DNA of 52,740 nt, from NCBI GenBank assembly GCA_016282095.1, contig JAEEJW010000078.1, forward strand, positions 1-52,740, given 5' to 3'. The notes under the pieces are model-generated. The model saw nothing but the letters and a program-made list of their open reading frames with translations. It had not been told where the DNA came from and did no database searches. Source of the stretch: Ruminiclostridium sp. GTDB taxonomy: Bacteria; Bacillota; Clostridia; Oscillospirales; Ruminococcaceae. Below are positions 3,273 through 32,995 of this stretch, piece by piece. The position numbers and the translations under genes are program-made. Position 1 is the stretch's first letter. The number at the start of each line of letters is the position of its first letter.

Positions 3273-3310
3273 CAGCCAGGTTTATTTTTCATTTTAGTGA
3301 CGTTCTCCCA

Positions 3311-3339
3311 TTGCATTTTTCATTTTTATATGGTATAAG
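3311..3339 (+). promoter_or_regulatory. upstream copy of a duplicated promoter (P1) before prfA
   Basis: -35-like TTGCAT (3311-3316) and -10 TATAAG (3334-3339) with a 17-base spacer. The surrounding 37 bases (3303-3339) match 3396-3432 at about 32 positions. It is followed at once by a GC-rich inverted repeat (GCGCGG/CCGCGC, 3340-3354). Confidence 0.5.
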
Positions 3340-3403
3340 CGCGGAGCCCGCGCACCCTATATTGTCCCGGACAGCTTTGTTTGCTTTTTATTTTCTTCTC
3401 CCA

Positions 3404-3432
3404 TTGATTTTTTCTTCTTTATATGGTATAAT
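3404..3432 (+). promoter_or_regulatory. main sigma-A promoter (P2) of the prfA operon
   Basis: -35 TTGATT (3404-3409), perfect -10 TATAAT (3427-3432), 17-base spacer. The transcript leader would contain the perfect 7-bp inverted repeat GCGCGGA/TCCGCGC (3462-3476), directly before the prfA ribosome binding site AGGAGGTGA. Confidence 0.75.
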
Positions 3433-3489
3433 AATATATTAAAGCATCCGATGACGGAGCAGCGCGGACTCCGCGCAGGAGGTGAGTGC

Positions 3490-4563
3490 ATGACCGAAAA
3501 GCTCAGCGAAGCCGAAAAACGCTACGAAGAAATAGGCGAAAAGCTGTCCGATACCGCAGTTATAAGCGATCAGGAACAGTATAAGAAACTGATGAAGGAA
3601 TATAAGAGCCTGACTCCGCTGGTGGAGAAGTTCCGTGAGTACAGGAAGGCAGAGAGCGATTTTGCCGAGGCGAAGGCTATGCTGGACGAGAGCGGCACGG
3701 ACAAGGAACTGCGAGAAATGGCACAGCTCCAGTACGACGAGAGCCGTGAGCTCATAGAGAAGTACACGGAAGAGCTCAAGGTGATGCTACTGCCGAAAGA
3801 CCCCAACGACGACAAGAACGTTATCATGGAGATACGCGCAGGCACCGGCGGAGAAGAAGCCGCGCTGTTTGCCAACTCCCTGTTCAGGATGTACACCATG
3901 TACGCACAGTCCAAGGGCTGGAAGACCGAGGTCATCGGCTCGAACCCCACGGAGCTGGGCGGCTACAAGGAGATCAGTTTTTCCATAGAGGGCGACGGAG
4001 CTTACGCGAAGCTGAAATACGAGAGCGGAGCGCACCGCGTCCAGCGAGTCCCCGAGACCGAGTCGCAGGGCAGGATACAGACCTCGGCGGTAACGGTGGC
4101 GGTGCTTCCGGAAATGGAAGCTGTGGACGTGGAGATCAATCCCGCCGATCTTGAATACCAGACTTACCGCTCCAGCGGCGCGGGCGGCCAGCACATCAAT
4201 AAGACCGAGTCCGCGATACGCATAATACACAAGCCTACGGGTACGATAGTAGAGTGTCAGGAAGAGCGCAGCCAGTACAAGAACAAGGACAAGGCGATGA
4301 AGATGCTCTATTCCAAGCTCTACGAAGCAAAGCTCAATGAGCAGAACAGCCGCATTGCCGCCGAACGCAGGACGCAGGTAGGCACAGGCGACCGCTCCGA
4401 GCGCATTAGAACGTACAATTTCCCCCAGAGCCGCGTCACGGATCACCGCATAAACCTTACTCTGTATAAGCTGGAACAGTTTATGAACGGCGCCTGCGAC
4501 GAGGTTTTCGACGCCCTTGCCATAGCGGATACAGCCGCAAAGTTGGCAGGCAGCGGAGACTGA
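3490..4563 (+). CDS. prfA: peptide chain release factor 1 (RF1)
   Basis: RF1 recognises UAA/UAG in the ribosomal A site and triggers peptide release. The 357-residue length is normal for the family. The codon-recognition motif is the RF1-type PxT (Pro188-Glu-Thr190) rather than the RF2 SPF. The catalytic GGQ is at residues 232-234 in SSGAGGQHINKT; its Gln is the site normally methylated by PrmC. The ATG at 3490 is chosen because AGGAGGTGA precedes it by a few bases; an in-frame ATG at 3451 has no such site. The gene heads a plus-strand run with tsaC/sua5 and coaE. In many Firmicutes prmC sits directly after prfA, but here it does not. Confidence 0.97.
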   Translation: MTEKLSEAEKRYEEIGEKLSDTAVISDQEQYKKLMKEYKSLTPLVEKFREYRKAESDFAEAKAMLDESGTDKELREMAQLQYDESRELIEKYTEELKVMLLPKDPNDDKNVIMEIRAGTGGEEAALFANSLFRMYTMYAQSKGWKTEVIGSNPTELGGYKEISFSIEGDGAYAKLKYESGAHRVQRVPETESQGRIQTSAVTVAVLPEMEAVDVEINPADLEYQTYRSSGAGGQHINKTESAIRIIHKPTGTIVECQEERSQYKNKDKAMKMLYSKLYEAKLNEQNSRIAAERRTQVGTGDRSERIRTYNFPQSRVTDHRINLTLYKLEQFMNGACDEVFDALAIADTAAKLAGSGD

Positions 4564-4594
4564 TGTTCATTTATATAAAACGGCAGGAACAATA

Positions 4595-5629
4595 ATGAAG
4601 ACAAAACTTGTAAAAGCCTCGGACAGCGTGCTGGACGAAGCCGCAGAGATACTGAAAAACGGCAGCATAGCGGCGATACCTACGGAAACGGTCTACGGAC
4701 TGGCGGCCAACGCCTACGACGTAGAAGCCGTGCGCTCTGTGTTCAGGGCGAAGGGCAGGCCGCAGGATAATCCGCTGATACTGCACATCAGCTCGACGGA
4801 TATGCTCTATGACATAGCGGAGAGCGTGCAGCCGCTGGCTCTGAAGCTCGCGGAGAACTTCTGGCCGGGTCCGCTGACAATGATATTCCCGAGGAAGCCC
4901 CACGTTCCCGCAGAGACCTGCGGAGGCCTCGATACGGCAGCAGTCCGTATGCCGAACAACGCTTTCACCCTGAAACTTATCGAACGCTGCGGGTTCCCGA
5001 TCGCAGCGCCTTCCGCCAATACCTCCGGGCTCCCAAGCCCGACGGGTGCCGCCCACGTCATGGCGGACATGGACGGGAAGATTCCGCTGGTCATCGACGG
5101 CGGCGAGTGCCGCTTCGGTGTGGAGAGCACCGTTATCTGCTTCGAGGGCGAAGATGCGGTCCGCATACTGCGCCCGGGCGCGGTGACTCCCGAGATGCTG
5201 CGGGAATACGCCCATGTCGCGGTGGACAGCGGCGTTCTGGAAAAGACTGACCCCAGCGCGAAGGTGCTGTCACCGGGTATGAAATACAAGCATTATTCCC
5301 CGGCTGCGGAAGTATATATATTGAAGGGAGACGCGGATACAGTATCGCGTTTCCTGAAAACGGAAAACAGGAACGGAACGGGATTTCTCGGCTTCGGAGA
5401 TGAGGAGATACCCGGAAACGTTACTGTGTTCCCCTACGGCAGAACCGCGGAGGAGCAGGCGGAGAATCTTTTCGCGAGCCTTCGTGCGGCAGATGCCGCG
5501 GGCTGCACACAGGTGTATGTAAGAATGCCCGATACTGCGGGGCTTGGACTCGCAGTGTACAACAGGCTGCTGAGAGCTGCGGCTTTCAGGGTCATAGAAG
5601 CGGACGGAGGCTCCGATGCTGTACGTTGA
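4595..5629 (+). CDS. L-threonylcarbamoyladenylate synthase, Sua5 type
   Basis: Makes threonylcarbamoyl-AMP from threonine, bicarbonate and ATP, the first step in the t6A37 modification of ANN-decoding tRNAs; it acts with TsaB/D/E, which are not in this window. At 344 residues it is the long Sua5 form. The YrdC/TsaC catalytic domain (about 10-200) shows PTETVYGLAANA, KGRPQDNPL and PSANTSG. A linker and the smaller C-terminal Sua5 domain (about 230-340) follow. AGGAAC lies about eight bases before the ATG. The C terminus overlaps the start of coaE by 14 bases, which indicates tight coupling. Confidence 0.95.
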   Translation: MKTKLVKASDSVLDEAAEILKNGSIAAIPTETVYGLAANAYDVEAVRSVFRAKGRPQDNPLILHISSTDMLYDIAESVQPLALKLAENFWPGPLTMIFPRKPHVPAETCGGLDTAAVRMPNNAFTLKLIERCGFPIAAPSANTSGLPSPTGAAHVMADMDGKIPLVIDGGECRFGVESTVICFEGEDAVRILRPGAVTPEMLREYAHVAVDSGVLEKTDPSAKVLSPGMKYKHYSPAAEVYILKGDADTVSRFLKTENRNGTGFLGFGDEEIPGNVTVFPYGRTAEEQAENLFASLRAADAAGCTQVYVRMPDTAGLGLAVYNRLLRAAAFRVIEADGGSDAVR

Positions 5630-6260
5630 CGACAATGTTTACATAGCCGGCCTCACGGGAATGTCAGGCGCCGGAAAATCCACTGCCGCGCGGATATTCG
5701 CGGAGAACGGCATCGCGGTCATCGACTGCGACAAGGTGGCGCGGATAGTCGTTGAGAAGGGCAGACCCGCCCTCCGTGAGATAGCCGCGGAGTTCACCGG
5801 AAGCATACTCACGCCGGAGGGAGAGCTGAACAGAAAGAAGCTGGGCGGCATAGTGTTTGCGGACCGGGCGAAGCTGGACAGACTGAACGGCCTGATATAT
5901 CCGTACATCACGTTTGAGATAATCCGCATGATACGGGAGTGCGCCGACAGGGGAGACAGGGTCATAATGCTTGATGCCCCGACGCTGTTCGAGAGCGGCG
6001 CCGACAGGCTGTGCGACACGGTGGTGAGCGTCGTCGGCGATATCGCTTCCTGTAAGGAACGCATCATCGGGCGCGACGGACTGACCCCGGAACAGGCGGA
6101 GCAGCGCCTTTCGTCACAGCACGGAGCGGACTTCTACCGTGAGCGTTCGGAATTCTGCATAGAAAATAACGGCACAGAAGCGGAATTCGCCGCAAAGGTG
6201 TCGGAGACCGCCCGCATACTTGCCGGGCGCACAGGAGAGAGATTTGAAGAAAAAAAATAA
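5616..6260 (+). CDS. coaE: dephospho-CoA kinase
   Basis: Catalyses the last step of coenzyme A synthesis, phosphorylating the 3'-OH of dephospho-CoA with ATP. The 214-residue protein has a P-loop at about residues 12-20 (GLTGMSGAGKST), the Asp-containing IDCDKVAR segment and the lid region around QRLSSQ. The start at 5616 has GGAGG (5606-5610) upstream and overlaps the preceding gene. The 3' end overlaps the next gene by 17 bases. Confidence 0.95.
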   Translation: MLYVDDNVYIAGLTGMSGAGKSTAARIFAENGIAVIDCDKVARIVVEKGRPALREIAAEFTGSILTPEGELNRKKLGGIVFADRAKLDRLNGLIYPYITFEIIRMIRECADRGDRVIMLDAPTLFESGADRLCDTVVSVVGDIASCKERIIGRDGLTPEQAEQRLSSQHGADFYRERSEFCIENNGTEAEFAAKVSETARILAGRTGERFEEKK

Positions 6261-6843
6261 AGCGGTGCCGGTTATACTCGCCGTTGTGCTGATAACCGCG
6301 GCATTGGCGGCAGGCGCCTATTTCGGGGGAAAGAATGTCTACGACAGCTATATCGCCTCCGAACACCCGATAAAATATCAGGAATATGTCGAGCGCTACG
6401 CCGACGAATACGGCCTGGACAAATATCTTGTGTACGCGTTCATAAAGACCGAGAGCGGTTTCGACCCCGAAGCGGTCTCGGGTACCGGAGCACGGGGGCT
6501 CATGCAGCTCATGGAGATCACCTTTGACTGGGTGAAGTTCCGGCTCGGGGACGGCGACGAGATCACCTACGACGATATGTTCGACCCGGAGACGAATATC
6601 CGGTACGGAGCTTACCTCGTGGGTTTCCTGATGAAGAAATACGAAGACATCGACACTGCGGCGGCGGCATATTTCTCGGGAGTCGGCGAAGTCGGAGACT
6701 GGCTGGAGAACAGCGAGTATTCTTCCGACGGAGTGCATCTCGACAGGATACCGAGCCGCAATGCCGCACATTATGTAAATAAGATCAATGACGCTTACGG
6801 AGTTTATCTGAAACTCTATGCGCCGGAAAGGAACAGAAAGTAA
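6244..6843 (+). CDS. membrane-anchored lytic transglycosylase (SLT fold)
   Basis: Cleaves the MurNAc-GlcNAc bond of peptidoglycan with formation of a 1,6-anhydro end. The 199-residue protein has an N-terminal membrane anchor (about residues 7-25), then the SLT domain with the family pattern KTESGFDP (catalytic Glu70), GARGLMQLM and, further on, NIRYGAYLVG and AAYFSGVG. The initiation codon is probably TTG at 6244, since AGGAGAGA precedes it. A further upstream ATG at 6220 lies inside coaE and has no ribosome binding site. The stop overlaps the next start (TAATG). It is likely a wall-remodelling enzyme of vegetative growth or sporulation. Confidence 0.92.
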   Translation: MKKKNKAVPVILAVVLITAALAAGAYFGGKNVYDSYIASEHPIKYQEYVERYADEYGLDKYLVYAFIKTESGFDPEAVSGTGARGLMQLMEITFDWVKFRLGDGDEITYDDMFDPETNIRYGAYLVGFLMKKYEDIDTAAAAYFSGVGEVGDWLENSEYSSDGVHLDRIPSRNAAHYVNKINDAYGVYLKLYAPERNRK

Positions 6844-19474: not shown

Positions 19475-21145
19475 TTATGACTGTTCCGGTGCCGCTTTTT
19501 TCTTTGAGAGCAGCTTTATGGTGAAGAGTACCGCTATCATCAGGACTATCGAGATGCCGAGCACCACGAATACGTTCTGTATGAAGCCGGAGATCAGGTA
19601 GCCCACCGCGCATACGCCTGCGGTTGTGAAGGCGTATGGGAGCTGTGTGGAAACATGGTTGACGTGGTCGCACTGTGCACCCGTGGAGGCCATGATGGTG
19701 GTATCCGATATAGGCGAGCAGTGGTCGCCGCATACGGCACCCGCGAGGCAAGCCGCGATGCAGATGATGACCATTTCGGGAATTACGCCGGTCTCGGCTG
19801 TGGAAGCGAGGTCACCGGAGAATACGCCTGTAACTATCGGGATAAGGATACCGAATGTACCCCATGAAGTACCTGTCGCGAAGGAAAGACCGATAGCAAC
19901 TGCGAAGAGTATCAGCGGCAGGAGTATCTGAATCGCGTGTGCGCTTTCAACGATGCCGGATACATACGGACCGGCTTCGAGCATGGAAGTAATGGACTTG
20001 AGCGCCCATGCGAAGCAGAGTATCAGTATAGCCGGTACCATCTGCTTGAAGCCCGCCACGATGGAATCCATGCAGCTTGTGAAGGTGAGAACGCGTCTGC
20101 ACAGGAAGTAGAGTATAACAAGGATAAGAGCGCCTATGGAACCGAGGGCGAGACCATAGGAAGCGTCACAGTCCGAGAATGCCGTGATGAGGTCGGCTCC
20201 CGAGAACAGGCCGCCGGTATATACCATACCGAGTACGCACATAACTATGAGTATCACAACGGGGAGAATGAGGTCGATGACCTTGCCCTTTGTGTGAACG
20301 GGCTTGTCGTCCGGAGGATAAGCGGTATTCTTCGTGGTGAAGAGGTCACCGTTCCTTGCGTTGTCCTCATGGTGCCTCATGGGACCGAAGTCCGTGTCGC
20401 TGAGCGCTATGAAGATTACCATGACGATCGTGAGCAGAGCGTAGAGGTTGTAGGGAATGGTGTCGATGAAGAGCTGTATGCCGTTGACGCCGTCAACCGT
20501 TCCGGCAACTGCGGCTGCCCACGATGATATCGGGGCGATAATGCAGATAGGAGCGGCTGTCGCGTCGATGAGGTAAGCGAGCTTTGCACGGGATATTCTG
20601 TGCTTGTCCGTAACGGGGCGCATTACCGAGCCGACGGTAAGGCAGTTGAAGTAGTCGTCCACGAATATCAGTGCGCCCAGCAGGAATGTTGCGATGCTTG
20701 CGCCCTTGCGGGTCTTGATGTGTGCCGAAGCCCATTCACCGTAAGCACGGCTTCCGCCCGCTCTGTTCATCATGACTACAATAGTTCCAAGCACAACGAG
20801 GAATACGAGTATTCCGACATTGTACGAATCGGCGATGTTGGCTATGATGCCTTTGTTGACCACAGCGTCCATAAATTTCGGGAAGCCCGTGAGTACAGGT
20901 GCTTCGGGGTCTTCCGGGAGCGGTGTGTTCGTCGAAACGGCATACAGGAAGCCGCCCGTCAGTATTCCGAGGAACAGGGAGGAGTAGACTTCCTTCGTTA
21001 TCAGCGCAAGTCCTATCGCGACTACCGGAGGCAGAAGCGACCAGAGCGTGCCGACAGCTTCGGTTATCGGTGCGCTGACAGCACAGCATATAATGAATAC
21101 CACAACGATAAGTGCGAAAATGATCTTACTGAGATACTTTTTCAT
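19475..21145 (-). CDS. NhaC-family Na+/H+ antiporter-type transporter
   Basis: A polytopic membrane carrier of 556 residues with about 11-13 hydrophobic helices. Conserved segments of the family include FVDDYFNCLTVGSVMRP, the APICIIAPISSWAAA helix, SFATGTSWGTFGILIP and AGAVCGDHCSPISDTT. The ATG at 21145 fits AAGGAGGG about 10 bases upstream better than an ATG at 21154 that lies almost on the ribosome binding site. Its 5' end overlaps the DMT-transporter gene. As last gene of an amino-acid ABC operon it may be a sodium-coupled amine or amino-acid exchanger rather than a pure Na+/H+ antiporter; this is inference from context. Confidence 0.9.
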   Translation of the reverse strand: MKKYLSKIIFALIVVVFIICCAVSAPITEAVGTLWSLLPPVVAIGLALITKEVYSSLFLGILTGGFLYAVSTNTPLPEDPEAPVLTGFPKFMDAVVNKGIIANIADSYNVGILVFLVVLGTIVVMMNRAGGSRAYGEWASAHIKTRKGASIATFLLGALIFVDDYFNCLTVGSVMRPVTDKHRISRAKLAYLIDATAAPICIIAPISSWAAAVAGTVDGVNGIQLFIDTIPYNLYALLTIVMVIFIALSDTDFGPMRHHEDNARNGDLFTTKNTAYPPDDKPVHTKGKVIDLILPVVILIVMCVLGMVYTGGLFSGADLITAFSDCDASYGLALGSIGALILVILYFLCRRVLTFTSCMDSIVAGFKQMVPAILILCFAWALKSITSMLEAGPYVSGIVESAHAIQILLPLILFAVAIGLSFATGTSWGTFGILIPIVTGVFSGDLASTAETGVIPEMVIICIAACLAGAVCGDHCSPISDTTIMASTGAQCDHVNHVSTQLPYAFTTAGVCAVGYLISGFIQNVFVVLGISIVLMIAVLFTIKLLSKKKAAPEQS

Positions 21146-22058
21146 TGAGATCATTCCCTCCTTTTTTCTTTTTGTTAATATTTATCTGAGCGGCAACGAC
21201 CGCGATAAATACCAGAGTACAGCCCGCGAGCTCCTTTATGCTGAGGGTCTCGTTCAGCAGAAGCCAGCCTGAGAGCGCCGCGAATACGGATTCAAGGCTC
21301 ATCAGCAGGGTAGCGGCAGTGGGGTCGGTGTAGCGCTGTCCGATTATCTGGAGAGTGTAGGCCACTCCGCAGGACATCACGCCTCCGTAGAGTATCGGCA
21401 GCCATGCCGCGAGTATCGCATCAAATGACGGCTGCTCGAAAATGAACATACAGACAAGCATTATAGTGCCTGCGGTGAAGAACTGTATGCAGGACATCAG
21501 TGTTCCGTCGGCGTTTTTCGCGTTGAAACGGTCGATGATCATGATGTGCGCCGCAAAGAAGAATGCGCAGGCCAGCACCAGCAGGTCGCCGGGGGAAACG
21601 GTGAAGCCTTCGTTTATGCACAGCAGGTAGAAACCCGCTATTGCGACAAGGCAGCATATCCACGCTTTCAGCGAGGTCCTGCGGTATATCACGAAGCCGA
21701 ATATGGGCACTATGATTATGTACAGTGCGGTGACGAAGCCCGCTTTACCGGCAGTAGTCATGCTTATGCCGTACTGCTGGAGCATACCCGCCACCGTGAA
21801 TATCAGGCCGCAGATGACACCGCCCGTGACGGTAGTCCTGAGGGGAGCCTTTTCCCGCTTCTCAGGGGACTTGTCCGGCAGGAGCCTGAGCAGTCCGATC
21901 ACAGGAATAAGCACAAACCCGCCGATAAGCGTGCGGCAGGCGTTGTAGGTGAACGGCCCGACATAGTTCATGCCGTCGCTCTGCGCGACGAAAGCCAGAC
22001 CCCATATCGCCGCGGTTATCAGCAGCATGATGCTGCCGCGGAGCTTATGCTGCTTCAT
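21126..22058 (-). CDS. EamA/DMT-superfamily transporter
   Basis: A 310-residue drug/metabolite transporter-type permease with ten membrane helices in two EamA repeats of five. The N-terminal repeat opens with SIMLLITAAIWGLAFVAQ. The second repeat contains YGGVMSCGVAYTLQIIGQ and the typical ATLLMSLESVFAALSGWLLLNE. The start codon overlaps the stop of the upstream ATPase gene (TAATG), and the lysine-rich tail overlaps the next start. Members often export amino acids or metabolites; the location inside an amino-acid ABC operon supports an amino-acid-related substrate, but this is inference. Confidence 0.92.
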   Translation of the reverse strand: MKQHKLRGSIMLLITAAIWGLAFVAQSDGMNYVGPFTYNACRTLIGGFVLIPVIGLLRLLPDKSPEKREKAPLRTTVTGGVICGLIFTVAGMLQQYGISMTTAGKAGFVTALYIIIVPIFGFVIYRRTSLKAWICCLVAIAGFYLLCINEGFTVSPGDLLVLACAFFFAAHIMIIDRFNAKNADGTLMSCIQFFTAGTIMLVCMFIFEQPSFDAILAAWLPILYGGVMSCGVAYTLQIIGQRYTDPTAATLLMSLESVFAALSGWLLLNETLSIKELAGCTLVFIAVVAAQININKKKKGGNDLNEKVSQ

Positions 22059-22783
22059 TACAGGACTTTGGACAGGAATTCCCTGAGTCTCGGGCTTTTC
22101 GGGTTTGAGAAGAATTCGCCCGGTTCGTTTTCTTCCATTATCACGCCGCCCTCCATGAACAGGACGCGTGAAGCCACTTCGCGTGCGAAACCCATTTCGT
22201 GGGTAACTACCACCATGGTCATGCCCTCTTCGGCAAGCTGCTTCATCAGCCCCAGCACCTCGCCCACCATTTCGGGGTCAAGTGCGGAAGTCGGTTCGTC
22301 GAACAGCATGACTTCCGGGTTCATGACGAGAGCCCTCGCTATGGCGATACGCTGTTTCTGACCGCCGGAGAGCATATTCGGGTAGCTGTCGGCCTTGTCG
22401 AAGAGCCCGACTTTCCGCAGGAGCTCTTCGGCTCTTGCGTTGGCCTCGTCTTTGGTCATCAGTTTCAGCTTTACTGGAGCGAGGGTGAGATTGCCGCGTA
22501 TAGTCAGATGCGGGAACAGGTGGAAATGCTGGAACACCATGCCCATTTTCTCGCGCACCTTGTGGAGCTGCTTCTCCGACGCGGCGGTAAGGTCGGTGCC
22601 GTCAAACAGTATAGTGCCGCCGGTAGGCTGTTCAAGGCGGTTCAGACAGCGCAGGAATGTGCTTTTGCCCGAGCCGGAGGGCCCTATGATAACGACCTTT
22701 TCGTTCTTTTCTATCTTCGTGTCGATGCCCTTGAGTATCTCAAGATCACCGAAGCTCTTTTTAAGTCCTTTAACCTCGATCAC
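22058..22783 (-). CDS. polar amino-acid ABC transporter, ATP-binding protein (GlnQ-like)
   Basis: The energising subunit of a polar amino-acid importer, 241 residues. It has Walker [10 protein letters not shown] (about residues 34-42), the Q-loop around [11 protein letters not shown], signature LSGGQKQR, Walker [13 protein letters not shown] and the H-loop in VVTHEMGFA. Initiation is at GTG (22783), with AAAGGAGG upstream inside the permease gene; the two overlap by 14 bases. Second of the three transporter core genes. Confidence 0.95.
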
Positions 22784-23462
22784 TCTTCTTGAGCCTCCTT
22801 TCGAGCTTTCCGACCAGAGCGCTGAGTCCTACGACTATGATAAGGTAGATCAGCGCGACTGCGATAAGCGGCAGGAATGCCTCATAAGTGACGCTTCTGA
22901 TTATGTCTCCGCCCTTGGTGAGGTCTTCGAGGGCGATATATCCAGCGACGGATGTTTCCTTCAGCAGTACGATGCACTCATTGGCAAGTGCGGGCAGGAC
23001 ATTCTTGAACGCCTGGGGAAGAATTATGTACATCATGGTCTTTGAGTAGCTGAGACCGAGGCTTGCGCCGGCCTCGAACTGTCCGCCGTCCACCGACATG
23101 ATGCCCGAGCGCACGATCTCCGCGACGTATGCTCCGGAGTTTATACCGAATGCAAGCACACCGACGAAGACCTTGTCTATCCTCACGGAAGCGAAGATGA
23201 CATAGTAGATGATGAGGAGCTGCACCATTACAGGCGTTCCTCTTATCACCGTCAGATATATCTTCGATATGAAATTCAGTATTTTAAGCTTGCCTGTTTT
23301 ATCGTGTGTTGCACGGACTATAGCAACGAGGAAACCAATGACCATGCCCAGCAGCACTGCGAAGAATGTTATGATGAGCGTGGTCTTGAGTCCGTTCACG
23401 AGGTACATATACCTGTTATCGTAGATGAAGGTATCGTACAGCTTCTGTAAAAGATCGTCCAA
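22770..23462 (-). CDS. polar amino-acid ABC transporter permease
   Basis: A membrane subunit of the His/Glu/Gln/Arg permease type, 230 residues, five helices. The EAA loop ([22 protein letters not shown], given here as a region near residues 133-154) contacts the ATPase; RGTPVMVQL lies near residue 75. Initiation is at TTG (23462) with GGGGGA eight bases upstream; the next in-frame ATG would remove the N-terminal periplasmic segment. It lies 55 bases downstream of the binding-protein gene. Confidence 0.93.
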
Positions 23463-23517: not shown

Positions 23518-24303
23518 CTACTTGGCTCTTACGACGATTGCCTGCATCGAGGTAGCGTAGCCGTCGGTGAAGTTTACGTTCTTGAGTCTGTCCTCTGTAA
23601 CGGACATACCAGCAACGCCAACGTCGGCCTTGCCGGAGGTAACGGCTGTGATTATGGAATCGAATGCCATGTTCTCGATAGCCAGCTCCATGCCGAGCTT
23701 GTCGCAGATAGCTCTCATCATGTCAACATCTATGCCGACGATCTCGTTGTTCTCCATGCTCTCATAAGGCGGGAATTCGGCGTTTGTAGCCATGGTTATA
23801 GTGCCTGTTCTTGTTATGGAACTGTCTGCAACATAAGGAGCGTGATCGGCCTCGTCGCCTATCCAGTGGGAAATGATGCCGTCAAGGGTTCCGTCGGCCT
23901 TAATAGCCGCAAGAGCTTCGTTGAGCTTCTTGCCCAGTTCATCGTCGCCTATGCGGTAGCAGATGGAATATTCTTCATTATCGAAAGGCTCGTCGAGGAT
24001 CCTGAGGTCGGGGTTCTTGTTCACGAAAGCCTTTGCAGTCTCCATGTCGATGATGACAGCGTCGGTCTTTGCCTGTTTGAGCGCCTGTATGGCGTCCGCA
24101 CCCTTGTTGTAGCCCTCGACCTTGGCGTTCTCGATGTCGCCGGCAAGGATATATCCGGTGGTGCCGAGCTGTGTGCCTATGGTCTTGCCCTTGAGGTCAT
24201 CGGCGCTGTTTACGGTGTTTGCGGGAACGGCGGCGGCTCCGCAGGACGAGATGCATACTACGGCAGCGGCAAGCAGTGCCGCGAGTGGTCTTGTTTTTTT
24301 CAT
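23518..24303 (-). CDS. circularly permuted family-3 amino-acid-binding lipoprotein
   Basis: A solute-binding lipoprotein (261 residues; lipobox CISSC, Cys21) for the adjacent permease and ATPase. Its two halves are in reverse order. Residues 32-150 match the usual C-terminal half (SADDLKGKTIGTQLGTTG ... AIKADGTLDGIISHWIGD). Residues 167-261 match the usual N-terminal half (TITMATNAEFPPYES ... FDSIITAVTSGKADVG ... VTEDRLKNVNFTD). The protein stops where a canonical member would cross into its second half. The signal peptide sits before the moved half, so this is an intact permuted gene and not a fragment. The binding protein at 24663-25514 has the normal order. The ATG at 24303 has AAAGGAAG upstream; an earlier in-frame ATG (24360) lacks a ribosome binding site. 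Confidence 0.9.
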   Translation of the reverse strand: MKKTRPLAALLAAAVVCISSCGAAAVPANTVNSADDLKGKTIGTQLGTTGYILAGDIENAKVEGYNKGADAIQALKQAKTDAVIIDMETAKAFVNKNPDLRILDEPFDNEEYSICYRIGDDELGKKLNEALAAIKADGTLDGIISHWIGDEADHAPYVADSSITRTGTITMATNAEFPPYESMENNEIVGIDVDMMRAICDKLGMELAIENMAFDSIITAVTSGKADVGVAGMSVTEDRLKNVNFTDGYATSMQAIVVRAK

Positions 24304-24662: not shown

Positions 24663-25514
24663 ATGAAAAAAACATTTATAGCAAGAATAACAGCAGGTCT
24701 CGCTGCATTCGCGATGATCGCTGCGGCAGGAAGCTGCGGCAACGGCGGCAGCGCGCAGACAACGACCGCCGCCGCAGGCACACCCGCAGCTTCGGCCGAT
24801 GATTCGCTGAAGAAGGTAATGGACGCAAAGCAGCTCGTTCTCGGACTTGACGCAAGCTTCCCGCCCATGGGCTTCACAAACGAGGCAAACGAGATCGTGG
24901 GCTTCGATATCGACGTGGCTCAGGCGGTATGCGACAAAATGGGCATCACGCTGGTAAAGCAGCCTATCGTATGGGACAACAAGGAAGAGGACCTCAATGT
25001 CGGCAAGATCGACTGCGTTTGGAACGGAATGTCCATAAACGAGTCGAGACAGAAGGCAATGAACCTTTCCGAACCCTACATGAACAACGAGATGATCTTC
25101 GTAGTACCCGGAAACAGCACTGTAAAGACAATGGACGACCTCAAGGGCAAGACCGTAGGCGTACAGTCCGGTTCCTCCGCAGAGGAGATACTTGTGGCTG
25201 CCGATCTCTACAAGGACATCACCGTAACGGCTCTTGAAGACAACGTAACTCTCCTCAACCAGATGGAACTCGGCTTCTCCGATGCTGTGTTCCTCGATTC
25301 CATCGTTGCGAACTACTTCATCACAGAGAACAGCAAGGATTATGTTATACTCCCCGGCAACCTTGAAGCGGAAGAATACGCTATCGGTTTCAGAAAGAAC
25401 GATCAGGCGCTCCGTGACGAGGTACAGAAGATCCTCGGTGAACTCAAGGCAGAAGGCAAGCTGGCCGAGATATCCACAAAGTGGTTCGGCAGAGACGTTA
25501 CAACCGTCAAGTAA
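24663..25514 (+). CDS. family-3 amino-acid-binding lipoprotein (canonical order)
   Basis: Extracellular lipid-anchored receptor of a polar amino-acid importer, 283 residues. The signal peptide ends at a lipobox (AAGSC, Cys near 23), followed by an Ala/Thr-rich linker. Lobe 1 starts with LVLGLDASFPPMGF, then NEIVGFDIDVAQAVCDKMG and GMSINESRQKAMNLSEPY; the hinge and lobe 2 follow with DDLKGKTVGVQSGSSAEE and end with KWFGRD. The ATG at 24663 has AAAGGAAAAAG in front; an ATG at 24642 overlaps that site. A terminator (25537-25566) separates it from its permease gene, which would let the receptor be made in excess. Confidence 0.94.
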   Translation: MKKTFIARITAGLAAFAMIAAAGSCGNGGSAQTTTAAAGTPAASADDSLKKVMDAKQLVLGLDASFPPMGFTNEANEIVGFDIDVAQAVCDKMGITLVKQPIVWDNKEEDLNVGKIDCVWNGMSINESRQKAMNLSEPYMNNEMIFVVPGNSTVKTMDDLKGKTVGVQSGSSAEEILVAADLYKDITVTALEDNVTLLNQMELGFSDAVFLDSIVANYFITENSKDYVILPGNLEAEEYAIGFRKNDQALRDEVQKILGELKAEGKLAEISTKWFGRDVTTVK

Positions 25515-25679: not shown

Positions 25680-26384
25680 ATGACAGGAGAACAGTTATCG
25701 ACGCTGTTCGGGCTGATGCTCGAATACGCTGTCCCGACGCTGAAAATATTCGCGTTCACGCTGCTTTATTCCATACCGCTCGGAATGGTGGTGGCGCTGC
25801 TGAAAATGTGCAGGTTCAAGCCCATTTCATGGCTGACGAACATCTACATACTGATAATGCGCGGAACTCCGCTGCTGCTCCAGCTCATCGTGGCGCAGTA
25901 CTCGGTGCCGTACATCGTGCGCAGCGATATCTGCCCGGATTTCATAAAGAGCCTGCTCGAAAACGTGGACATCAGAAGCGAGAGCTACACGTTCAATATG
26001 ATGCTTTTTGCCTTTGTGCTCAACTACGCGGCTTACTTCGCGGAGATATTCCGCGGCGGTCTCGAGTCGATACCGAAGGGGCAGTACGAAGCCTCGCGGT
26101 GCCTCGGTTTCGGTAAGTTCCAGACCTTCTTCCGCATAATACTCCCGCAGGTGATAAAGCGCGTCGTACCTGCAAGCTCCAACGAGATAATCACGCTGGT
26201 CAAGGATACATCGCTTGCCTCCGCGATACCGTACATGGAGATCATGTACATAGCGAAGAAGCAGGTGCCGCTGTACGCGTCGCTTATGCCGCTGTTCATG
26301 GCGGGCGTGTTCTACTTCGTGTTCGCAACGGTGCTTACAGTGCTTTTCTCGGCAGTCGAGAAGAAGCTGGATTATTACAGGTAA
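25680..26384 (+). CDS. polar amino-acid ABC transporter permease
   Basis: A membrane subunit of 234 residues with five helices. RGTPLLLQL lies near residue 61, and the ATPase-contacting EAA region (ASRCLGFGKFQTFFRIILPQ, near 139-158) near the middle. AAGGAG lies about 12 bases before the ATG. It partners the binding protein at 24663-25514 and the ATPase that starts 13 bases downstream. It is more divergent from the permease at 22770-23462 than a recent duplicate would be, so the two transporters are probably old paralogues with different substrates. Confidence 0.94.
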   Translation: MTGEQLSTLFGLMLEYAVPTLKIFAFTLLYSIPLGMVVALLKMCRFKPISWLTNIYILIMRGTPLLLQLIVAQYSVPYIVRSDICPDFIKSLLENVDIRSESYTFNMMLFAFVLNYAAYFAEIFRGGLESIPKGQYEASRCLGFGKFQTFFRIILPQVIKRVVPASSNEIITLVKDTSLASAIPYMEIMYIAKKQVPLYASLMPLFMAGVFYFVFATVLTVLFSAVEKKLDYYR

Positions 26385-26397
26385 GGAGGGACGCGGT

Positions 26398-27162
26398 TTG
26401 GCTATACTTGAAGTAAGGAATCTGTCCAAGAGCTTCGGCACTCTTAACGTGCTGAACGATATCAGCTTCGATGTTGAAAAGGGCGAGGCCGTGGCAGTGA
26501 TAGGCCCCTCCGGCAGCGGCAAGTCCACGCTGCTGCGCTGCGTGAACCAGCTTGAAAAGGCGAGCGGAGGAACGATACGCTTCTGCGGAATGGATATGTT
26601 CGTCCCCGGTCCGGGCGGAAAGAGCGTCTACGCAGACAAGCAGACACTTCGCAAAGTACAGGAGAAAACGGGGCTCGTGTTCCAGAATTTCAACCTGTTC
26701 CCGCACATGACCGTACTGCGGAATATCACCGAGGCTCCGGTCTGCGTGCTGAAAAAGAGCAAGCAGGAAGCGCAGGAGATCGCGATGGAGCTTCTGAAGA
26801 AAATGGGTCTCGAAACCAAAGCAAAGTCCTATCCCTGCGAGCTTTCCGGCGGCCAGCAGCAGCGTGTTTCAATAGCCCGCGCTCTTGCTATGAACCCGGA
26901 GATACTGTTCTTCGACGAACCCACCTCGGCTCTCGACCCGGAGCTGACGGGAGAGATACTGAAAGTCATCAAGGAGCTTGCCGCCGACGGTATGACCATG
27001 GTTATCGTGACCCACGAAATGAACTTCGCACGGGGTGTGGCGGATAAGATAATCTTCATGGAGGGCGGCTACATAGTCGAACAGGGCGATCCGGAGCAGC
27101 TCTTCGGAGAAAACGCCTCTGAGCGCACGAAACAGTTCCTCCAGAGATACAGCAGCATATAG
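26398..27162 (+). CDS. polar amino-acid ABC transporter, ATP-binding protein
   Basis: ATPase subunit, 254 residues. Walker [10 protein letters not shown] (about residues 34-42), the Q-loop in LVFQNFNLFPH, signature LSGGQQQR, Walker [13 protein letters not shown] and H-loop VVIVTHEMNFA are all intact. An insert of about 12 residues before the Q-loop (PGPGGKSVYADKQ) is longer than in the ATPase at 22058-22783. Initiation is at TTG (26398) with AAGGAGGGA seven bases upstream. Confidence 0.95.
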   Translation: MAILEVRNLSKSFGTLNVLNDISFDVEKGEAVAVIGPSGSGKSTLLRCVNQLEKASGGTIRFCGMDMFVPGPGGKSVYADKQTLRKVQEKTGLVFQNFNLFPHMTVLRNITEAPVCVLKKSKQEAQEIAMELLKKMGLETKAKSYPCELSGGQQQRVSIARALAMNPEILFFDEPTSALDPELTGEILKVIKELAADGMTMVIVTHEMNFARGVADKIIFMEGGYIVEQGDPEQLFGENASERTKQFLQRYSSI

Positions 27163-27205: not shown

Positions 27206-30200
27206 ATGAATGATAATTTCAGAATTGAAGCGCGTGTCACAAATACCTTCAATTTCGCGATGCAGCAGAACTATATACCGCTTATCCGCAGTATAACGCT
27301 TGTGAACGACAGCACAGCCGCCGCGGAGAACGTGACGGTAAGGGCGGAGTTCGAGCCGGAATTCGCGAAGCCGTTTGAATACGAGCTCGGGACTGCCGAG
27401 GCAGGCAGGAGCACCGAGATATCTCCGGTGAAGCTCACTGTCTCGACGGAACTGCTGTTTTCGCTGACCGAAAAGACCGCCGGCAATATCCATATCTCCG
27501 CTGTTTCGGGAGAAGAGACTCTTGCGGAGACGGACATTCCCGTGGATATCCTCGCTTACGATGAGTGGAGCGGCGCTCTTATAATGCCCGAGCTTGTGGC
27601 GGCGTTCACGGCTCCGAACCACCCGAGGGTCGGTGAAGTGGTATCCCGCGCGTCGGTATATATGCAGAAATGGACGGGTTCGCCGTCATTCACAGGCTAC
27701 ATGACCGGGGACCCCAATGTGGCAAAGCAGCAGGCAGCCGCAGTCTACGCGGCTTTGCAGGAGGAGAACATCGCCTATACCGTGCCGCCTGCCAGCTTCG
27801 AGCAGTCCGGACAGCGTGTGCGTCTGCCGTACACCGTGCTTGCCGAGAAGCGCGGCACCTGCCTCGATCTCACCCTGCTCTTCGCTTCCTGCCTTGAGCA
27901 GACAGGCCTCAATCCGCTGGTGATACTTGTGAAGGGGCATTGTTTCGCGGGATTCTGGCTGGAGGACGAGACCTTTGCCGACTGCGCGGAGGACGATGCT
28001 TCGGCTCTTACGAAGCGCGCAGCCGAGGGCATAGACAAGATATGCGTAGTCGAGTGTACAGACTTTGTTGCGGGCAGCAGCACGGATTTCGCCCATGCCG
28101 AGAGCCACGCGCTCACGAAGCTGGGGCAGCCCGGCGAGTTCCAGTACGCAGTGGACATAAAGCGCTGCCGCGGGAGCGGCATCAGACCCATACCCGCCCG
28201 TGTTGCGGAGGACGGTGTCTACAAGGCTGTGGATTACGGCAGGCGCGACAGCGACGAGATCACTTCTGAACCGAGAATGATAGACACATCACGCCGGGGC
28301 GAGACCGCCGGTGAAAGAGAGCTGACGAAGCTGATGGTCTGGGAGCGGAAGCTGCTGGACCTGAGCCTGCGCAACAGTCTGCTCAACTTCCGCCCGGCTT
28401 CCTCAAATGTCCAGCTCATGGTCGCTGATGTGAGCAAGCTGGAGGACGAGATATCCGACGGCGAGAGCTTCAGGATAATGCCCGCTCCGTCAGAGCGTTC
28501 GTTTGTGCTGTCCGACAGCCGCATATATGAGACCGAGAACGACAAGGATCAGATATCGGCAATTGCCGAGTCGGAATTCAGGAATCACCGCCTGCGCACA
28601 TTCATAAGCGAGACGGAGCTTGAAAAGACGCTGAAAAAGCTGCACCGCGACGCGAAAGTCAGCCTTGAGGAAAACGGCGCCAATACGCTGTACCTGGCTC
28701 TGGGATTCCTGCGCTGGTATGAGACCGACAAGGCGGTGAAGCCCCGTTACGCGCCCCTTGTGCTGGTGCCGGTGGAGCTGGTCAGAAAGATACAGGACAA
28801 ATCCTACTCTCTGCGTGTGCGCGGAGAGGAGACTCAGATGAATATAACGCTGCTCGAGCTTCTGCGGCAGGATCAGGGCATCGCGATAAACGGCCTTGAC
28901 CCGCTGCCGGCGGACGAAAAGGGCGTGGATCTGCCGCTGGTGTTCAGCACTGTGCGGCAGGCGGTGATGTCGAAGAAGCGCTGGGATATCGAGGAGATAG
29001 CTTTCCTCGGTCAGTTCTCGTTCAGCCGCTTCATCATGTGGAACGACATACGCAACCGCTCCGAGGATCTCGCAAAGAACAAGGTCGTCGCGAGCCTTAT
29101 GTCCGGAAAGACCGAGTGGGAGGAAGAGGACATCGCACTTTCGCCCAATGTTCTTGACGAAAAGCTGCTGCCTGCGGATATGGCGGTGCCGATGAGCGCC
29201 GACTCCTCGCAGCTGGCGGCGGTATATGAAGCGTCCCTCGGGCGCAGTTTCGTGCTGCACGGCCCGCCCGGAACGGGTAAATCCCAGACCATAACGAATA
29301 TGATAGCGAACGCGCTGTTCCAGGGGAAATCGGTGCTGTTCGTGGCAGAAAAAATGGCGGCTCTGTCGGTAGTCCAGAAGAGACTGAAAAAGATAGGCCT
29401 CGATCCGTTCTGCCTGGAGCTCCATTCCAACAAGGCACAGAAGCGCGCTGTACTTTCGCAGCTTGAGGAAGCGCTGGGAATGAGCCGCATAAAGCCGCCG
29501 GAGGAATACGCACGCACAGCCGACAAGCTCCACTCCCTGCGCGTGGAGCTCAACGACACCATGTCGGCGCTGTACAAGGAGCGCTCGGCGGGAATGTCCG
29601 TCTATGACGCGGTGGCGCAGTACGAAGCCGTAAAGGACTACGACGGCCGCCTGACGCTGGACGGAGACTTCGTGGCTTCCTCGTCTGCGGCAGACTTCGC
29701 CGCGTGGGCGGAAGCCGCCGCCGATACTGCCGCGGCCGGCAGGGATCTGGGCGGCCTTCAGGGCTCCCCGCTGAAAAATGTCTGCATAACCGAATACACG
29801 ATCGAGATAAGAAGCGCGTTCGCGGCGCTGGCGGAGCAGCTCTGCGGCAAGGCAGCCGCTGCCGCGGGAGCTTACGCGAAGCTCGGAACGGCTCTCGGCT
29901 GTCCGATGCCCTCGGATAAGAAAGGCATAGACAGTGCTTTCGGACTGCTGAACGCGGTCACGGGGCAGGAGCTTATCCTCGGCGGCATCGTGAACGGCGA
30001 AGACCCGGCTTCGGTGCGCGGCGAAATGGAAAAGCTCATCGACACCGGACTGCGGATGATCGCGATATACGGCGAATATTCCGCGAAATTCGAGCCCAGC
30101 ATCTGGAACTACGACCCCGACACGGCTCTGCTCAACTGGAAAAAGACACAGCAGAGCAACTTCATAAGCAAGGCTCTGGGTTCCGGCAAGCAGGTCAAGG

Positions 30201-32995
30201 AGCTTGCCGTCTACGCCAAGGACCCGAATTCCGTCACGAAGGACAACATAGTGCAGATACTCGGCACGCTGTCGGAATACCGTCAGCTCGCTGCCGCGGT
30301 AAACGCCGCCGACCCAATGGTGACGAAGTATTTTGGCGAATACTGGCGCGGCATCAATACCGTGTTCCCGAAGCTGAAAACAGCTCTTCCGGTATCCTTT
30401 GACATACGCAATATGATGCTGGACGCGCAGCCGGAATTCCGGAGCGCAGTCATAGCCCATGCCGCCGACCCTGCCGCAAGGGCGGCTCTCGGTGACGCAC
30501 AGGCCCGCTACGCGGATATGCTGGCTGACTGCGGCCGCATGAAGAACGAGTTCTCCGCCGATGTGGCAGGCGTATGCGGCGGTGCGGACTTCTTCGGCAG
30601 CATTGCCGCAGAGAACCGCGGTTACTGCGGCGCGGCAGAGAGCCTGCGCGACAGGGCAGTGCTTGAGAACAGCATAAGGAAGATGAATATGCTGGGTCTT
30701 AAACCCGCCGCCGACGCTTACAGGAGCGGCGTTCTCGACGAGAGCAGCCTGAGACCCGCACTGACCGCCGCGGTCTGCAAGTCCGTGATCTCCCGCGCCG
30801 TAAGCTCCGAGCCGCTGTTAAAGTCATTCCAGGGCGCGGAATTTGAGCGCACGATTGAAAAATACCGCAACTTCTCGGCACGTTTCGAGGAGCTGACCAT
30901 AGAAGAGCTGGCAGCGAGACTGTCCTCAAGAGTGCCGGATATCTCTACAGGAAAGACCGCCAATTCCTCGGAGCTGGCGATATTACAGAAAGCGATAAAG
31001 AGCGGCGGCAGGGGAATGTCCATACGCAAGCTGTTCGACAGCATACCGAACCTGCTCGGAAGGCTCTGCCCGTGTATGCTCATGAGCCCGATATCCGCCG
31101 CGCAGTACATAGATCCGTCTTACCCGAAGTTCGATCTCGTGGTGTTTGATGAGGCCTCGCAGCTCCCCACCAGTGAAGCAGTCGGTGCCATAGCGCGCGG
31201 CGAGAATGTGGTGGTAGTCGGTGACCCGAGACAGCTCCCGCCCACATCATTCTTCACAACGGACCATACCGACGAGGAGAATATCGAGAAGGAAGACCTG
31301 GAAAGCGTCCTCGACGACTGTCTCGCGCTGGCGATGCCCCAGAGACATCTGCTCTGGCACTACCGTTCGCGCCACGAGAGTCTTATCTCTTACAGCAACA
31401 GCCGCTTCTATGACAACAGCCTGCGCACTTTCCCGTCACCCGATGATCTTGTTTCCAAGGTCAACTGGGTACACGTCGAGGGCTTCTACGACAAGGGAGG
31501 CTCAAAGCAGAACCGCGCCGAGGCCGAGGCAGTCACCGCGGAGATCGTCCGCCGCCTGTCAGACCCCGAACTGCGCAAGGACAGCATAGGCGTTGTAACA
31601 TTCAATATAATCCAGCAGATACTCATTGACGATATGATAGCCGACGAGCTCCGCAAGGATCCCGCACTGGAGCAGGCAGCCAACGAGATGTATGAGCCCA
31701 TTCTCGTCAAGAACCTCGAAAACGTTCAGGGCGACGAGCGCGACGTGATACTGTTCTCCATAGGCTACGGCCCGGACAAGGACGGCAAAGTCTCCATGAA
31801 TTTCGGCCCCGTGAATCAGGACGGCGGCTGGCGCAGACTCAATGTCGCAATTTCCCGCGCAAGAAAGGAAATGATAGTGTTCTCGACTATCCGTCCCGAA
31901 CAGATAGACACTGCGCGTACACGTTCCGAGGGCGTCGCCGGACTGCGCGGATTCCTTGAATTTGCCGCAAAGGGCAATTCCGCCCTGCCGGTGAGAAAGA
32001 CTTCCGGAAACGGTAAAAAAGACAACGCTGCATTCGCGGAAACCGTGGCGGAGGCTCTGCGCGGCGCGGGCTATGAAGTCAAGCGCAATATAGGCCAGTC
32101 GGACTACAAGATAGACATAGGCATAGTGAACCCCGACTGCGAAGGCACATACCTGCTGGGCATAATGTGCGAGAGCCGCAGCAACTTCGAGCTGACCAAC
32201 GCACGCGACCGCTGCATCGTTCAGCCGTCGGTGCTGGCGGGACTGGGCTGGAAGATACTCAGCGTGCATATACTTGACTGGCTGGATAATGACCGCAAGG
32301 TGCTGGCTAATCTCACCGAAGAAATAGAAAAGGCGCTTGAAGCATTCCGCAGCGGTGTGCCGGTAGTTGAAGAAGCTGCCCCCGCAAAGCGTGAGATAAC
32401 CTTCGAGCGGGAAGAAGCTGCCGCAGACGCGGGTCCGGTGTACTACACGCCCTTTATTCCCGAAACTGCCGGCGATCCCGAATACTACTACGATAAGAGT
32501 TCAAATACGCAGATAAGGCGCATCATCACGGATATCGTGAACGCCGAGGCTCCTGTGGGCAGGGGAGTTCTCCTGCACCGCGTACTCGGTGCGTTCGGCA
32601 TAGCGAAAATGAGCGCAAAAGCGGAGAGCCGTTTTGCGGAAGTGTTCGACGGTATGGAGCTTAAAAAGACCATGCGCGGCGAGCTTGTGTTCGTATGGCG
32701 CAGCGATCAGGAACCGTCGGAGTACACAGAGTTCCGCGCAACCGCCCCGGGCGGCGAGAAGCGGAAGCTGGACGACGTATCCACCGAGGAGATCGGCGCG
32801 GCAGTGACCGATATCCTGCGCAGCTCCATAAGCCTTGAACGCGCGGAGCTTGTGAAGAACACCGTACAGACCTTCGGCGCGTCACGCACCACAGAAGCCG
32901 GGGAGCTTGCGGTATCCATGGGAATTGCTCACTCCGTCCGCAGCGGCAGGGCGAAGATAGATACAGAGACAGGCCGCATTATGTGCGCAGACTGA
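27206..32995 (+). CDS. giant DUF4011-type SF1 helicase with transglutaminase-like, nuclease-fold and DUF3320 domains
   Basis: A 1929-residue protein. Order: N-terminal beta-rich region (about 1-110); a transglutaminase-like segment (Cys in KRGTCLDLTLLF near 219, His in KGHCFAGFW near 245, Asp near 255); DUF4011 (about 370-560, WERKLLDLSLRNSLLNF); an SF1 helicase with Walker A GPPGTGKSQT near 685, a coiled insert of about 600 residues, Walker B VVFDEASQLP near 1315, VGDPRQLPPT, and motif VI NVAISRARKEM near 1545; a nuclease-fold (MTES_1575-like) segment near 1610-1700 with KIDIG; and a C-terminal DUF3320 winged-helix-like domain (about 1768-1925). Homologues usually read IECDG in the nuclease motif; here it is IMCES, so nuclease activity is doubtful. 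Known relatives are linked to nucleic-acid processing and some to defence, but these neighbours are metabolic. AAAGGAA lies upstream of the ATG. Confidence 0.88.
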   Translation: MNDNFRIEARVTNTFNFAMQQNYIPLIRSITLVNDSTAAAENVTVRAEFEPEFAKPFEYELGTAEAGRSTEISPVKLTVSTELLFSLTEKTAGNIHISAVSGEETLAETDIPVDILAYDEWSGALIMPELVAAFTAPNHPRVGEVVSRASVYMQKWTGSPSFTGYMTGDPNVAKQQAAAVYAALQEENIAYTVPPASFEQSGQRVRLPYTVLAEKRGTCLDLTLLFASCLEQTGLNPLVILVKGHCFAGFWLEDETFADCAEDDASALTKRAAEGIDKICVVECTDFVAGSSTDFAHAESHALTKLGQPGEFQYAVDIKRCRGSGIRPIPARVAEDGVYKAVDYGRRDSDEITSEPRMIDTSRRGETAGERELTKLMVWERKLLDLSLRNSLLNFRPASSNVQLMVADVSKLEDEISDGESFRIMPAPSERSFVLSDSRIYETENDKDQISAIAESEFRNHRLRTFISETELEKTLKKLHRDAKVSLEENGANTLYLALGFLRWYETDKAVKPRYAPLVLVPVELVRKIQDKSYSLRVRGEETQMNITLLELLRQDQGIAINGLDPLPADEKGVDLPLVFSTVRQAVMSKKRWDIEEIAFLGQFSFSRFIMWNDIRNRSEDLAKNKVVASLMSGKTEWEEEDIALSPNVLDEKLLPADMAVPMSADSSQLAAVYEASLGRSFVLHGPPGTGKSQTITNMIANALFQGKSVLFVAEKMAALSVVQKRLKKIGLDPFCLELHSNKAQKRAVLSQLEEALGMSRIKPPEEYARTADKLHSLRVELNDTMSALYKERSAGMSVYDAVAQYEAVKDYDGRLTLDGDFVASSSAADFAAWAEAAADTAAAGRDLGGLQGSPLKNVCITEYTIEIRSAFAALAEQLCGKAAAAAGAYAKLGTALGCPMPSDKKGIDSAFGLLNAVTGQELILGGIVNGEDPASVRGEMEKLIDTGLRMIAIYGEYSAKFEPSIWNYDPDTALLNWKKTQQSNFISKALGSGKQVKELAVYAKDPNSVTKDNIVQILGTLSEYRQLAAAVNAADPMVTKYFGEYWRGINTVFPKLKTALPVSFDIRNMMLDAQPEFRSAVIAHAADPAARAALGDAQARYADMLADCGRMKNEFSADVAGVCGGADFFGSIAAENRGYCGAAESLRDRAVLENSIRKMNMLGLKPAADAYRSGVLDESSLRPALTAAVCKSVISRAVSSEPLLKSFQGAEFERTIEKYRNFSARFEELTIEELAARLSSRVPDISTGKTANSSELAILQKAIKSGGRGMSIRKLFDSIPNLLGRLCPCMLMSPISAAQYIDPSYPKFDLVVFDEASQLPTSEAVGAIARGENVVVVGDPRQLPPTSFFTTDHTDEENIEKEDLESVLDDCLALAMPQRHLLWHYRSRHESLISYSNSRFYDNSLRTFPSPDDLVSKVNWVHVEGFYDKGGSKQNRAEAEAVTAEIVRRLSDPELRKDSIGVVTFNIIQQILIDDMIADELRKDPALEQAANEMYEPILVKNLENVQGDERDVILFSIGYGPDKDGKVSMNFGPVNQDGGWRRLNVAISRARKEMIVFSTIRPEQIDTARTRSEGVAGLRGFLEFAAKGNSALPVRKTSGNGKKDNAAFAETVAEALRGAGYEVKRNIGQSDYKIDIGIVNPDCEGTYLLGIMCESRSNFELTNARDRCIVQPSVLAGLGWKILSVHILDWLDNDRKVLANLTEEIEKALEAFRSGVPVVEEAAPAKREITFEREEAAADAGPVYYTPFIPETAGDPEYYYDKSSNTQIRRIITDIVNAEAPVGRGVLLHRVLGAFGIAKMSAKAESRFAEVFDGMELKKTMRGELVFVWRSDQEPSEYTEFRATAPGGEKRKLDDVSTEEIGAAVTDILRSSISLERAELVKNTVQTFGASRTTEAGELAVSMGIAHSVRSGRAKIDTETGRIMCAD

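Follow-up and report, generated by a model that had tools for sequence, protein, structure and literature searches.

In canonical substrate-binding proteins (SBPs) of family 3, lobe 1 is built from the N-terminal part of the chain together with a C-terminal tail, and lobe 2 lies between them. Natural permuted binding proteins are already known in other SBP clusters. Tp0684 (MglB-2) of Treponema pallidum, a lipid-anchored ABC binding protein, is circularly permuted by nature and has Gram-positive relatives, and its authors also discuss a link to membrane tethering (PMC4990184). The glycine-betaine-binding proteins OpuAC and ProX are related by circular permutation, a relation given by CPSARST for the glycine-betaine/molybdate group in the excerpt cited (PMC2395249). 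Fusion of SBP domains to a permease is described for GlnPQ, where the excerpted text gives the tandem order SBD1-SBD2-permease (PMC8025302). Here, we describe P0002, an SBP family-3 lipoprotein gene with its halves in reverse order, in a window of 52,740 nucleotides (the whole stretch of DNA analysed) from a bacterium that is kin to gut and rumen Clostridia.

Results

The halves of P0002 are encoded in reverse order

An earlier note on this DNA had placed a permuted lipoprotein gene at 23518-24303. The coordinates stand, but reading of the ORFs corrects the strand to minus, where P0002 encodes 261 aa plus a stop; the plus-strand frame at the same position is a chance open frame. The lipoprotein signal described in the note is indeed intact, with Cys21 closing a lipobox-like ISSC motif and a helix at residues 6-19 in the AlphaFold2 model. 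The parts of the gene and its canonical neighbor are as follows.

23518-24303, minus strand: circularly permuted SBP family-3 lipoprotein gene P0002 (profile matches, AlphaFold2 model)
24241-24303, minus strand: signal peptide and lipid-anchor Cys, residues 1-21 (sequence; model helix 6-19)
23995-24219, minus strand: lobe 2 (canonical middle part), residues 29-103, first in the P0002 chain (canonical and segment HMMs)
23854-23994, minus strand: hinge strand 2 and lobe 1 C-terminal helices, residues 104-150 (HMMs, AlphaFold2 model)
23809-23853, minus strand: linker from old C-terminus to old N-terminus, residues 151-165 (gap lengths, confident in model)
23524-23808, minus strand: lobe 1 N-terminal part and hinge strand 1, residues 166-260, last in the chain (canonical HMM 2-96; strand 243-259)
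24663-25514, plus strand: canonical-order SBP family-3 lipoprotein P0003, divergently transcribed (profile, canonical HMM)

The Pfam profile SBP_bac_3 (PF00497) matches P0002 with 117 bits (cut-off 26.4) in two stretches, and the best of these places profile positions 1-92 at residues 169-260, i.e., the N-terminal half comes last. P0003, which had been put forward as a standard-order internal comparison, serves well as one, with a single SBP_bac_3 stretch (profile 1-131) in normal order. A canonical HMM built from 41 canonical relatives, with P0003-type rows left out, splits P0002 into two pieces of 127 and 143 bits, with profile 98-219 at residues 29-149 and 2-96 at residues 166-260. When this HMM was doubled end to end, P0002 gave a single match at 98-316 with 264 bits, spanning 219 positions where the whole domain has 220, while 200 shuffled versions of P0002 reached a maximum of 6 bits in the canonical/doubled HMM test. 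By the doubled HMM, P0002 is thus a circular permutation as defined, with the domain present once, the old termini joined, and the new termini internal. The same crossing was seen in three alignments of P0002 to solved canonical relatives; residues 166-259 align to AncQR 9-103 and residues 30-150 to AncQR 108-233. Both profile halves of SBP family 3 score above the cut-off in P0002, but they do not follow the N-before-C order, and since the halves are reversed, we treat P0002 as a permuted variant rather than a canonical member.

The reversal of the halves with a cut at the hinge, as first proposed, is therefore upheld by Pfam, the 41-relative HMM, the doubled HMM, and the AlphaFold2 model. 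The segment bounds given at that time (32-150 and 167-261) describe the reversed pieces correctly, except that homology begins at about residue 29 rather than 32. The description of two swapped lobes is right for the order of the halves but not as a simple exchange of lobes, since lobe 1 is normally discontinuous. P0002 runs from lobe 2 (L) through hinge strand 2 and the C-tail (T) and a linker to the N part (N), and its lobe 1 is contiguous (C-tail, linker, and N part) behind lobe 2.

The AlphaFold2 model of P0002, made with 81 permuted rows, reached a pLDDT of 92.8 and a pTM of 0.83. Confidence extends to the linker that connects the old termini, and a long strand at the new C-terminus (residues 243-259) matches hinge strand 1. 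A Foldseek search of the model against the PDB returned 558 matches with E ≤ 0.001, and the 50 of these listed were mainly binding proteins and fold relatives. Query TM values of 0.30-0.47 among the 50 matches listed are compatible with permutation but have no canonical control, as the P0003 model reached a pLDDT of 40 with 5 rows. One-lobe entries of TmArgBP domain 1 match the model at 38-39% identity over 102 columns. Judging from the order of the segments, the lipid anchor of P0002 would leave from the lobe-2/hinge side, whereas it normally leaves from lobe 1.

P0002 adjoins a permease and an ATPase of the polar amino acid type

The further genes around P0002 are as follows.

22770-23462, minus strand: cognate permease, BPD_transp_1, GlnP/cystine type (profile matches; locus survey)
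22058-22783, minus strand: cognate ATPase, best curated model GlnQ, below cut-off (profile matches; locus survey)
21126-22058, minus strand: EamA-family exporter-like gene, downstream in near relatives only (profile; 9/80 loci)
19475-21154, minus strand: Na+/H+ antiporter family (PF03553) gene, downstream in near relatives only (profile; 6/80 loci)
25680-26384, plus strand: permease of the canonical (P0003) system (profile)
26398-27162, plus strand: ATPase of the canonical (P0003) system (profile)

The permease matches HEQRo_perm_3TM with 74.2 bits, above the cut-off of 42.2, and the best model for the ATPase is GlnQ at 316.4 bits, below its cut-off of 379, so that P0002 adjoins a permease and an ATPase that fit a polar amino acid ABC importer. 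Among the 81 permuted rows, 20 columns are invariant, and these include Q45, T48, D86, F177, F214, and R239. We take these to be the positions of ligand contacts in E. coli GlnBP, where R239 and D86 would presumably contact the carboxylate and amino group of the amino acid and F177 and F214 would be the cleft Phe residues. The Arg, Asp, and cleft Phe of SBP family 3 are thus all present and invariant. On these grounds, we infer both the ligand class and the transport role of P0002 as the L-alpha-amino-acid receptor of an ABC importer. The best curated ligand model, the NCBIfam Lys/Arg/Orn-binding TIGR01096, scored 140.9 bits against a cut-off of 256.35, and since the NCBIfam ligand models fall far below their cut-offs, we claim no ligand for P0002. 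A search of Rfam at gathering scores yielded no riboswitch as a clue to the ligand, its sole match being a tRNA at 65-137.

A defense gene adjoins the two transport operons. Its product (27206-32995, plus strand, 1929 aa) matches the curated model of the anti-phage protein ProA with 2064.7 bits against a cut-off of 1500 and PADLOC PDC-S37 with 1176 bits.

Relatives share the permuted order

We used three segment HMMs to class the relatives, in which canonical genes read N-L-T, genes like that of the window (window type) read L-T-N, and a further hinge-2 type reads T-N-L. A scan of named genomes with ten permuted query sequences gave at least 321 relatives, of which the best 80 were kept; all 80 carry the permuted order in one frame. 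The expectation that similar receptors occur in other Clostridia, so that the form might not be unique, is thus confirmed by the best 80 of at least 321 loci, and the suggested survey of homologues finds the reversed order common to them. Many records with permuted relatives are labelled as rumen or gut MAGs. Among these best 80 of at least 321 loci, a permease follows the permuted SBP in 74 and is fused to it in one frame in 4, while it is absent in 2, one of which lies at a contig end; an ATPase is present in 76. For the permuted SBP of L108 (5461-6705, plus strand), no recognizable permease or ATPase was found within 6 kb downstream. The proposed association with EamA and NhaC genes holds near the window's own type but not beyond it, as both occur together downstream of the permuted operon, within the fetched extracts, in only 6 of the 80 loci, all near relatives.

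At the level of the order (394 genomes), the best-scoring 30 loci comprised 27 permuted genes, the window's gene and two fusions among them, and three (N-L-T)n-permease fusions. A class-level search of 291 genomes gave window-type rows in at least 18 genomes (the window's included) and hinge-2-type rows in at least 28, and its best-scoring 28 new loci were all permuted (15 window type, 1 fusion, and 12 hinge-2). In a phylum sample of 199 genomes, most rows listed outside the class were split halves as in canonical genes. Nine candidates from this sample were opened: G774, G878, G791, G707, G825, G790, and the array of G828 have the permuted order, G748 has it weakly (35 and 57 bits), and in G738, L293 matched only in part. 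The class counts are not frequencies, because similarity to the window type determined which loci were retrieved, and the canonical, hinge-2, and array regions had been hand-picked from listed rows.

The G748 locus (L292, G748:C25:1500-8000) holds at 2676-3491 on the minus strand a divergent permuted-order SBP with weak scores, and its permease and ATPase are nearer to those of the window's canonical P0003 system. This context suggests permutation in another subfamily.

Cut sites, permease fusions, and arrays

The earlier note had expected similar permuted receptors in other Clostridia; these exist, but the extent was underestimated, with further cut sites, fusions, and arrays also present. 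Our cut counts include 207 unique ORFs with a full single-domain match and leave out 57 without one. Four cut positions occur among the relatives, at about 95-100 (window type), 107, 127, and 167. Matches to the doubled canonical HMM begin at 95-100 in 107 of 122 window-type rows and at 166-169 in 18 of 19 T-N-L rows. Starts at 107-108 are found in L148 and in L172, L175, and L179, which belong to a clade nested with hinge-2 proteins; for L176, L178, and L181 of this clade, the doubled HMM matched the N half only, and the cut was set by eye from their own ends and their kin L172, L175, and L179 (108). The cut at about 127, in mid-lobe 2, was seen in one genome only (L295, G790:C124:14500-18818, at 2796-3617 on the minus strand). 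Closer inspection of four genes with odd starts (150-164 and 205-214) showed two of them to be hinge-2 and two to be canonical. All cuts seen fall within the lobe-2 stretch or border on it, among relatives that were fetched by similarity and are not a fair sample. The linker varies little, with a median of 15 residues (sd 1.6, range 11-23) in 114 single permuted ORFs, 15 in 6 permease fusions, and 14 in 65 array junctions.

Beyond the 80 loci, permuted SBP-permease fusions were found in L133, L134, and L258. Among the frames picked from lists that fuse multiple SBP domains to a permease, 23 different frames have an N part as their last SBP segment ahead of the permease, and 3 follow the N-L-T order. 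Of these 23 permuted-unit frames, 20 open with lobe 2 and 2 with a T match (their first lobe 2 being undetected), and 1 is cut by a contig end. The gap from N to L in arrays has a median of 8 and a range of 4-19 over 34 junctions, while it is 4 in all 7 junctions of (N-L-T)n arrays; these statistics come from 27 array ORFs, with four genes represented twice in extracts of different length. Since the same gap ranges from 4 to 18 in 18 single canonical genes, it is alone no proof of permuted units, and an N part before the permease is a firmer sign than gap length.

The window's own genome also carries a frame of 769 aa with two permuted-order SBP units and a permease (L191, G000:C187:18000-25245, at 2778-5084 on the minus strand). 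In L179 (G293:C33:2500-13000, at 4988-6770 on the minus strand), a T-N-L gene and, directly downstream of it, an L-T-N-like SBP gene stand before one permease and an ATPase. Eight multi-SBP-permease frames of 1134-1210 aa (L193-L195, L201-L204, and L210) also carry an ATPase in addition to two permuted-order SBP units and the permease, which amounts to nearly a whole importer in one chain.

Permuted domains do not form single clades

For a careful tree, 81 re-ordered domains were taken out of 132 units; the remainder, 32 from arrays and 19 that were near copies, long branches, or part of the P0003 system, were left out. On this tree, which is unrooted so that gains cannot be told from reversals, the window type including the cuts at about 107 requires 6 changes, 4 of them forced by the starred branches, and the hinge-2 type requires 4, 3 of them forced. 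Neither form appeared as one clade in any of 200 bootstrap trees. In clade tests, a single origin as one clade is rejected both for the window (hinge-1) type including the cuts at about 107 (p = 5e-32) and for the hinge-2 type (p = 5e-5); for the cuts at about 95-100 alone, the rejection is weaker (p = 0.012) and the grouping was chosen after the tree had been seen. The window's domain lies in one clade of 21 rows.

Quick trees of both the permeases (near-identical ones dropped beforehand) and the SBP domains contain the permuted/canonical sister pairs L148/L244 and L132/L211. After re-ordering, the domains of these pairs are 71% and 73% identical, and their permeases are 75% and 67% identical. 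Since the clade tests reject single clades and the sister pairs are 71-73% identical, the comparison of sequences indicates that permutation has recurred in this transporter family.

No vestige of a duplication was seen when the doubled canonical HMM was run on the permuted rows. The extra C-terminal tail of L148 was considered as the leftover of a second copy, but the doubled HMM shows it to be the piece missing from the N-terminus, i.e., a later cut.

Discussion

We conclude, with a probability of roughly 0.87, that P0002 functions, in circularly permuted form, as the amino-acid-binding lipoprotein of a polar amino acid ABC importer, with its old termini linked, its chain cut behind hinge strand 1, and its cleft kept, and that the permutation is recurrent, with cuts in the lobe-2 stretch in all cases seen. 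A linker of about 15 residues would now connect the old termini, both of which lie in lobe 1, and the new ends would have been created immediately after hinge strand 1, which would have made lobe 1 contiguous. Of the two covalent crossings between the lobes, one would have been opened and one left, and the ligand cleft would be retained. The receptor would most likely catch an L-alpha-amino acid and hand it to the adjoining permease, powered by the ATPase. The route was presumably a tandem duplication followed by trimming, as tandem forms exist in the family.

Other readings of P0002 itself carry far less weight. Its source is a draft genome of 243 contigs, but the idea that the gene is a pseudogene or was rearranged in sequencing or assembly has next to no probability: an assembly artefact is excluded because the best 80 of at least 321 loci, from other records, share the order in one open frame, permuted forms occur in the single-contig genomes G271 (L153 and L171) and G506 (L273), and the key residues are invariant in the 81 rows. 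SBP family-3 domains also occur in sensors, and L108, 1 of the 80 loci, lacks a permease or ATPase in the 6 kb downstream; however, a signaling or other non-transport role is very improbable given that 78 of the best 80 of at least 321 loci have a permease behind the SBP or fused to it, with further permease fusions in L133, L134, and L258. It is also unlikely, if less so, that P0002 functions only as a domain-swapped pair in which lobe 2 and the C-tail of one chain complete the N part of the other. One of the close canonical relatives among the PDB matches, TmArgBP, is a domain-swapped dimer. Circularly permuted constructs of ribose-binding protein showed swapped elements (PMC10601554). Against a swap stand the confident single-chain model, linker included, and a linker length that is nearly constant in single genes, fusions, and array junctions alike.

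Whether each cut site arose once is a separate matter. A single ancient permutation per site, spread by gene transfer and sometimes reversed, would agree with the shared start of 107 of 122 window-type rows at 95-100, with the 21-row clade that holds the window's domain, and with the p of only 0.012, on a post hoc grouping, for the cuts at about 95-100. We nevertheless regard it as rather unlikely, only slightly less so than the domain swap, since the cuts are distinct (about 95-100, 107, 127, and 167), one clade is rejected for hinge-1 as a whole and for hinge-2, and the same permuted/canonical sister pairs recur in the SBP and permease trees. Instead, we lean toward the family being a hot spot, in which the receptor has probably been re-cut several times, each time independently, at about four lobe-2 loops and always with the anchor or permease tether at the lobe-2/hinge side. 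Such a pattern would point to a new tethering geometry that is selected for or at least tolerated. The bias of the cuts toward lobe 2 may reflect tolerance of termini there, a benefit in tethering, or in part sampling.

Order-bound profiles break permuted genes into two pieces. As a hot spot, the family would supply naturally occurring pairs of permuted and canonical receptors at >70% identity. Permuted domains may also serve as natural biosensor scaffolds. In the literature on permuted binding proteins, SBP family 3, and amino-acid-binding proteins, with subscription journals mostly outside its scope, we did not find this case among the papers listed, and the permutation-detection papers checked for binding-protein terms held nothing on permuted SBP family 3.

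Compared with canonical SBP family 3 (PF00497; GlnBP, TmArgBP, and AncQR, cluster F), P0002 has a strong match in both halves, invariant residues at what we take to be ligand contacts in both lobes, and the setting of a lipoprotein with permease and ATPase. Unlike them, it has its halves reversed, and its anchor and free end would lie at the lobe-2/hinge side. Tp0684 resembles P0002 as a naturally permuted, lipid-anchored ABC binding protein, but it belongs to another family, being a sugar-binding protein of Type I and cluster B, and its permutation adds a fourth hinge crossing (PMC4990184). P0002 matches SBP_bac_3 and SBP family-3 structures and does not belong to the Tp0684-like, Type I sugar-binding cluster Bc. 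The arrays here resemble GlnPQ in having tandem SBP domains fused to a permease, as described for it (PMC8025302), whereas 23 different frames among the arrays opened consist of permuted units, against 3 with the N-L-T order. OpuAC and ProX offer a like relation by permutation between binding proteins of like function, but at <24% identity and detected by structure in the excerpt cited (PMC2395249), whereas the relation of P0002's relatives is visible at 71-73% identity. In both Tp0684 and OpuAC/ProX, as these excerpts present them (PMC4990184, PMC2395249), permuted and canonical forms are distant relatives. Here, permuted/canonical pairs at 71-73% identity come with related permeases, several cut sites, and permease fusions, and therefore the origin of permutation in genomes and the effect of the tether on a Venus-flytrap receptor become directly testable.
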